64,000 nucleotides of DNA. It comes from Bosea vaviloviae (GTDB lineage Bacteria > Pseudomonadota > Alphaproteobacteria > Rhizobiales > Beijerinckiaceae). This document shows positions 2,098 through 2,268 of the stretch, in pieces. The stretch is from assembly GCF_001741865.1 (NCBI RefSeq), contig NZ_CP017147.1, positions 2,347,001 through 2,411,000 of the forward strand, read 5' to 3'. The notes beneath the pieces are model-generated. The model had not been told where the DNA came from and did no database searches. It saw only the letters and a list, made by a program, of their open reading frames with translations. Position numbers and translations under genes: made by a program. Each line of letters starts with the position of its first letter. The stretch's first letter is position 1.

Positions 2098-2268
2098 TGT
2101 ATCTTTGATTTGCCAGTCGGTTTTGTACCGGCGAGGTTTGAGGCGGAAGTCAGCCCGGTCCCCCCTTGGGTGAATTGAGCCCGTGGATGAGCGAGGTGCG
2201 GCTTCCGCCTTTTTGTCCCGAACCCGGACAGCCGCTTGGGCTCGAGCCCGCATTTGCAAGGATGGGTC
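2098..2268 (+). ncRNA. Predicted bridge RNA of the IS110 element
   Basis: The left end folds as expected for a bridge RNA. A 5' hairpin pairs 2116-2121 with 2127-2132. A perfect 9-bp stem (AGGCGGAAG 2141-2149 with CTTCCGCCT 2202-2210) encloses a loop holding CCCCCT (2161-2166), which equals the left target, and GGATGAG (2185-2191), which is complementary to the right target CTCATCC. A second loop holds ACAGCCGCT (2228-2236), identical to the element's right end at 3225-3233, then the hairpin GGGCTCGAGCCC, then TTGCAAG (2254-2260), which pairs with the left end CTTGTAT allowing one G-U and one mismatch. Transcription is not shown by sequence; the fold and guide matches are my reading. Confidence 0.7.

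Follow-up and report, generated by a model that had tools for sequence, protein, structure and literature searches.

The insertion sequence at positions 2096-3233 of the window (the whole 64,000-nucleotide stretch of Bosea vaviloviae DNA that was analysed) is almost certainly an IS110-group element with an anatomy close to that of IS621 and with a bridge RNA that guides its insertion into a repeat of the host. The element is complete, running from one CT core through the left end, the recombinase gene and the right end to the second CT (Table 1), and the core is common to both ends, as judged from their sequence and from the parsed relatives. The layout is that of the IS110 group, with a long left end (171 nt) holding the RNA and a short right end (15 nt).

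By analogy with IS621, the element would excise as a circle, whose joined ends would create a promoter from which the left end is transcribed into bridge RNA. Loop 1 would then pair with the bottom strand of the target to the left of the CT core and with the top strand to its right, loop 2 would pair likewise with the two ends where they are joined, and the recombinase would exchange strands at CT. The target guides spell CCCCCT and CTCATCC, and the corresponding site is present twice, in facing orientation, in a REP/BIME-like palindrome of which copies are dispersed over the genome; this would lead the element to insert into the repeat.

Table 1. Features of the insertion sequence and of its target repeat, with positions in the window
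Feature	Position	Strand	Basis or remark
Target repeat, left part	1990..2097	.	same repeat uninterrupted elsewhere in the genome
Outer hairpin of target repeat, left part	1990-2012
GGATGAGGGGGC, inverted copy of the site	2027-2038		followed by spacer, then left target
Left target GCGCCCCCT	within 1990..2097		3' end is the core
CT core, left copy	2096..2097	+	flanks joined at CT give GCGCCCCCTCATCCG, present in uninterrupted repeat copies
Left end, 171 nt, with predicted bridge RNA gene	2098..2268	+	covariance model 132.2 bits; fold and pair counts
Putative -10 box TATCTT, TG before it, of circle-junction promoter	2100..2105	+	17-bp spacer in 41/42 loci
Target-loop stem, 5' side (AGGCGGAAG at 2141-2149)	2141..2156	+	partner 2195-2210; two-sided changes in 13/15 pairs
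Left target guide CCCCCCT	2160..2166	+	guide-flank matching
Target loop, inner hairpin	2168..2182	+	fold and pair counts
Right target guide GGATGAG, complement of CTCATCC	2185..2191	+	guide-flank matching
Target-loop stem, 3' side (CTTCCGCCT at 2202-2210)	2195..2210	+	fold and pair counts
Donor-loop outer stem, 5' side	2223..2225	+	partner 2264-2266; two-sided change in 2/3 pairs, each in one sequence
Left donor guide ACAGCCGCT	2228..2236	+	identical to right end 3225-3233
Donor loop, inner hairpin GGGCTCGAGCCC	2238..2249	+	fold and pair counts
Right donor guide TTGCAAGG	2254..2261	+	overlaps likely Shine-Dalgarno AAGGA, 2258-2262, of recombinase
IS110-group recombinase, 315 aa	2269..3216	+	PF01548, PF02371, NF033542, alignment to IS621 8wt6
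Putative -35 box TTGACC of circle-junction promoter	3213..3218	+	overlaps recombinase stop codon
Short right end, 15 nt before core	3217..3231	+
CT core, right copy	3232..3233	+
Right target CTCATCC and right repeat arm	3232..3281	.	terminal hairpin 3259-3281
Second site GCCACCTTCTCC in right repeat arm	3255-3266		type of site that a different IS110 lineage occupies elsewhere
Uninterrupted target repeat copy in window	6732..6887	.	two facing sites, 6775-6785 and 6840-6850

Recombinase and bridge RNA fold

The recombinase carries both Pfam domains of the group, DEDD_Tnp_IS110 (PF01548, E 4e-21) and Transposase_20 (PF02371, E 7.5e-20), and scores 229 bits against NCBIfam NF033542 (IS110 family RNA-guided transposases), for which the cut-off is 140. 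Among solved structures, the ISCro4 transposase (PDB 9t56) is the best match in protein sequence with an E-value of 2.7e-39, and IS621 is matched at E 2e-37. The catalytic residues D12, E56, D98, D101 and S237 align with D11, E60, D102, D105 and S241 of IS621, as these are named in passages of PMC11208158 (numbering in the PDB chain, 8wt6, is offset by 2).

The preliminary description had read a two-loop bridge RNA from the left end, and all the stem, guide and loop sequences that it named are present. Its reading is borne out by a fold common to relatives, by a covariance model match and by guides that fit the elements' own flanks. Relatives were sought in 67 genus, 298 family and 397 order genomes (overlapping samples), and genome contigs contributed a further 34 loci. 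The left end and loop 1 could be parsed in 51 of the 83 loci examined, the other 32 being 13 without anchors, 15 with recombinases below 49% identity and 4 that were either duplicates or carried a turned left end. The same sequence occurs in two collections for L054 and L090 and for L069 and L093, and the guide tests therefore count distinct pairs; L058 is the same sequence as L095. Left ends in Bosea psychrotolerans contigs are 2 of 165 bases away from that of the window. In one B. psychrotolerans contig (L079, 1214-1503), two left ends point apart around the repeat centre, the second of them joined inside CCCCCTTGGG, which would reflect a double insertion or an assembly error.

Because Rfam gave no family (none at E up to 1 for positions 1900-3400), we built our own covariance model (R1) from 25 left ends (set A2), leaving out the window, L053, L085 and L049; this set still includes relatives with recombinases up to 74% identical to that of the window. 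On the 64-kb window the model matched 2098-2271 at 132.2 bits (E 1.3e-35), the runner-up scoring 8.1 bits. When run on 30 loci it found the RNA in 28, the exceptions being L078 and L086. Twenty of the 30 are distant or unparsed, and 18 of these have the RNA by this model (8 further such loci lay outside the run), with scores of 30-55 bits in loci whose recombinases are 41-45% identical.

The consensus fold consists of a long target-loop stem with an inner hairpin and of a donor-loop stem with an inner hairpin. In an alignment of 29 distinct left ends, including that of the window, it keeps 96.3% of pair cells and shows two-sided changes in 17 of 28 pairs, and none of 500 shuffled alignments reached the observed values on any of five measures. 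Slid versions of the fold keep 30-46% of pair cells, a comparison in which the consensus has an advantage, since it was derived from the same 29-sequence alignment. Thirteen of the 17 changing pairs belong to the target-loop stem, and the donor-loop helices are nearly invariant. The preliminary description had also considered that homologues might share no two-loop fold; this is not what we see, the fold being kept in the aligned relatives. The strong evidence is this comparative one; the single-strand fold of 2098-2268, with a z-score of -2.6 against shuffles and 3 of 200 shuffles equally good, is weak evidence when taken alone.

Insertion sites in the host repeat

Three copies of the element were found in the host genome (in the window, at C1:5843307 and at C1:2582735), and all three lie in one type of REP/BIME-like palindrome, composed of an outer hairpin, an inner inverted site and a spacer. 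All right flanks are CTCATCCG, and the left flanks are GCGCCCCCT in two copies and CCTTCCCT in the copy at C1:2582735. The expectation that other copies would have the same flanks as the window element thus holds for the repeat and for the right flanks, but one left flank is a variant; copies at sites unrelated to the loop 1 guides, the outcome that would have told against the reading, were not seen. The exact site CCCCCTCATCC occurs a further 36 times in the host genome, against 2 occurrences of the reversed pattern. Thirty of these 36 sites form 15 facing pairs that are 63-68 bp apart. Of the six unpaired sites, two are what remains of pairs whose other site is occupied, one at 2027-2037 in the window and another beside the C1:5843307 copy.

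The finding of all three copies in one repeat type would also be expected if the repeat had not been chosen at all and a single chance insertion had afterwards been carried from unit to unit of the repeat by homologous recombination. We regard this as very improbable, given that the copies in the window and at C1:5843307 face, by eye, opposite ways with respect to the asymmetric spacer and for this reason look like separate events, that the third copy lies in what appears by eye to be a diverged variant, with differing flanks that speak against such spread, and that relatives whose guides differ occupy different sequences that fit their guides.

Multi-copy DNA looks common as a target among the relatives. 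For CTCATCC immediately followed by TGAGG, the guide target of several relatives, nine host genomes were searched: six contain it 70-155 times, the remaining three, where the guides of the elements deviate somewhat from the pattern, contain it 0, 2 and 5 times, and the reversed pattern is found at most once in any genome. Across 11 genomes, the target pattern CCCCTCNCC was about 2-3 times as frequent as its reversed control in three (G000, G023 and G136), with less or no excess elsewhere, the pattern being too short to be very informative. The CTCATCC-TGAGG target of relatives elsewhere, CTCATCCTGAGG, is also a second abundant repeat of the host genome (54 sites); no element with a CTCATCCTGAGG guide was found there among the 150 of 5694 first-look candidates scored with the covariance model. 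Seven relatives (L032, L049, L051, L052, L071, L082 and L083) seem by eye to lie inside genes or in the ends of other insertion sequences.

The joined target sites have a weak tendency to be palindromic. Joined sites of 118 nt had a median folding z-score of -1.6 (34 sites) versus -0.2 in 304 control windows, with values below -3 in 5/34 and 7/304, respectively, and the three joined sites of the host genome gave -0.3, 1.2 and -8.1. For 45 nt of right flank the medians were -0.96 (34 sites) and -0.09 (921 controls), and with one value per guide (18) only 36 of 10,000 resampled control sets were equally low; left flanks (32) did not differ from controls in folding. Given these results, the targets of the clade are not strong hairpins alone.

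Guides, putative junction promoter and a probable shared ribosome-binding site

The right guide GGATGAG, claimed to be complementary to the right target CTCATCC, indeed matches all three copies at five non-core positions. The left guide had been called equal to the left target, which is correct for CCCCCT only: with the core aligned, TCCCCC-CT matches 4, 4 and 3 of 6 non-core positions in the three host-genome copies. Both claims about loop 2 stand, in that ACAGCCGCT is identical to the right end of the element and TTGCAAG (2254-2260) pairs with CTTGTAT of the left end, one G-U pair and one mismatch included. Among relatives, the first 7 nt of the left donor guide recur identically at the right end of the same element in 39 of the 41 loci with both parsed (exceptions L049 and L074), an identity that spans three sequence variants, and L058 has a changed left end, CTTCTA, with the right donor guide TGAAGG, instead of CTTGTA with GCAAGG. 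The target guides therefore match the insertion site and the donor guides the element ends, the left target guide doing so partially in the host genome.

Over 26 distinct pairs, the right target guide matches its own right flank in 120/130 comparisons at the five non-core positions, while flanks shuffled among elements gave a mean of 52.1 and a maximum of 80 in 20,000 trials. Counting each distinct guide once (14 pairs), which is fairer because related elements are not independent, gives 66/70 (shuffled mean 29.9, maximum 50). The left guide, for which the best of three registers was allowed in real and shuffled pairs alike, reaches 159/210 over 35 distinct pairs (shuffled mean 107.3, maximum 133) and 129/168 with one pair per guide (28; mean 83.8, maximum 104). 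Not one of the 20,000 shuffles equalled the observed match count for either guide, and across relatives the left guide matches its flank less well than the right guide does. The clearest single case is a minimal pair, L096 and L098, whose bridge RNAs are 2 of 165 bases apart, one of these in the right target guide, and whose right flanks differ at exactly the base paired by the changed guide position. On this comparison of sequences, the loop 1 guides and their targets change together across relatives. In eight relatives (L033, L054, L055, L057, L058, L094, L100 and L108) the left guide, in its flank-matching register, reads CCG, CCA or CCC, without the core T, unlike IS621, which is described as having the core in each pairing.

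The same counts bear on the idea that the left end is a structured 5' leader that regulates the recombinase only, the flank matches being coincidental in GC-rich repeat DNA. Such a role would suit the overlap of the right donor guide with the likely Shine-Dalgarno sequence, the ISPpu9 leader, reported in PMC8450116 to adopt a fold that probably takes in its ribosome-binding site, and the partial fit of the left guide alone to the target. However, own flanks surpass the flanks of other elements for both guides beyond all shuffles, and the minimal pair argues in the same direction, so that the idea is refuted as the sole explanation and deserves even less credence than spread by recombination; a leader role in addition to that of a bridge RNA is possible.

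As far as its motifs tell, a promoter forms across the joined ends. When the right and left ends are joined, TTGA[CT] and TG-TANNNN stand 17 bp apart in 41 of the 42 loci with a parsed right end (these include the three host-genome copies and other repeated or duplicate sequences), and among spacers of 5 to 39 TTGA[CT] is found at 17 only. This count holds for right ends located independently of CTTGA and becomes 42/42 when CTTGA is partly used to locate them; in the exception, L109, the script picked another right-end motif, and the CTTGA-based one also gives a spacer of 17. While the element is inserted, no more than 4 of the 6 -35 bases are present in the left flank at spacers 16-18, a number reached at 1 of 49 loci. 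Passages of PMC11208160 describe junction-spanning promoters in IS110 elements. The span 2098..2268 given earlier for the bridge RNA does contain it, but its first 8 bases are the -10 half of the junction promoter, and with the -10 box at 2100..2105 the RNA more likely has its 5' end near 2111-2113, inside that span.

At the other end of the RNA, the right donor guide GCAAGG shares bases with the likely Shine-Dalgarno sequence AAGGA (2254-2262 in the window), and AAGG followed by ATG is found in 48 of 51 loci. Guide RNA and recombinase synthesis may thus compete for the shared bases.

Known systems and other IS110 lineages of the host

IS621 of E. coli shares with the window element the recombinase domains, the catalytic positions, an RNA in the left end, the CT core, a junction promoter and insertion into REPs, as well as the layout of the RNA, in which the target loop precedes the donor loop and both consist of a stem, a left guide, an inner hairpin and a right guide. 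It differs in the sequences of guides and target, in the repeat family and in the group of hosts. This likeness is based on protein alignment and on published descriptions in passages of PMC11208160 and PMC11208158. Copies in host REPs have likewise been described, before bridge RNAs were known, for ISRm19, ISPpu9, ISPpu10 and ISPa11 of Sinorhizobium and Pseudomonas, listed as IS110 family in passages of PMC1525189 and likened to the window element by description only. The preliminary description was therefore right to call this a naturally repeat-directed recombinase, with three copies in one repeat type, but the trait is not new, because these four elements and IS621 (passages of PMC11208160) have been described as targeting REPs. 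Assignment to the IS1111 group, which would place a seekRNA at the right end, is scarcely credible despite the common DEDD/Transposase_20 architecture and the REP targeting of ISPa11, which passages of PMC11187229 treat as IS1111 family, in that the RNA lies upstream of the recombinase gene, the right end has only about 15 nt, and no 11-13 bp subterminal inverted repeat was seen by eye in the element sequence.

Natural re-direction is also in print, passages of PMC11187229 describing for ISEc11/ISXne4 a replaced target-detecting region of the guide RNA. Whereas that pair belongs to the IS1111 family, with the RNA downstream of the gene, the window clade belongs to the IS110 group, with the RNA upstream, and here such re-direction is seen down to a pair that differs in one guide base. 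Among the titles listed in a literature search with subscription journals mostly outside its coverage, none concerned this element, and no paper was found on Bosea with IS110. This is not a new system, as bridge RNAs, guide-target covariation, junction promoters, REP targeting and natural retargeting have all been published; modestly fresh are the overlap of the right donor guide with the Shine-Dalgarno sequence of the recombinase and the presence of a distant IS110 lineage at another site in the same repeat arm. This well-supported set of natural bridge RNAs, whose guides change along with their targets, down to the pair with one altered guide base, is useful for working out the pairing rules and for discovering further bridge recombinases.

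Scoring of 150 of 5694 first-look candidates with the covariance model gave 7 matches in the host genome, which include two further IS110 lineages. The third lineage (C1:2469427 and 5845861; L146-L148) scores 25.6 bits, has both IS110 domains, and its recombinase is 39% identical to that of the window. The loops of its own two-loop RNA hold GCCACC and GGAGAAG, and its insertion site, GGGCCACCT followed by TCTCCC (GCCACCT followed by TCTCC), lies 28 bp away from that of the window element on one and the same arm of the repeat; GCCACCTTCTCC occurs 53 times in the host genome and its reversed pattern not at all. One such arm (G000:C1:5843307-5847000; L002, L148) holds three insertion sequences, namely a window-type element, an rve/IS481-type element and a member of the third lineage. 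With one repeat of one genome reached by two guide solutions from distant lineages, the preference of IS110 elements for repeats can be studied in a clear example. Here we speculate, with somewhat less than even confidence, that guides in this alphaproteobacterial clade evolve to follow multi-copy host DNA and that REP/BIME palindromes would thereby be guide-selected landing pads, with two distant lineages of this genome aiming at closely spaced sites of one arm and three insertion sequences gathered in one repeat copy, and that donor guide and Shine-Dalgarno sharing may bring competition.

The second lineage (C1:6301421 and 3337484) scores 44.6 bits and lies, by eye, in a different palindrome (GGATCC...), where its left guide GGATCCC fits the left flank and its right guide fits partly. 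By eye, the ends of the second and third lineages showed no evident TTGA[CT] junction promoter. Both copies of the second lineage (C1:6300497-6301594 and 3337484-3338581; L149, L150) have a recombinase frame with one internal TGA. The rve/IS481-type element in the triply occupied arm has the ends TGTCC...GGACA, with CCGG on either side.
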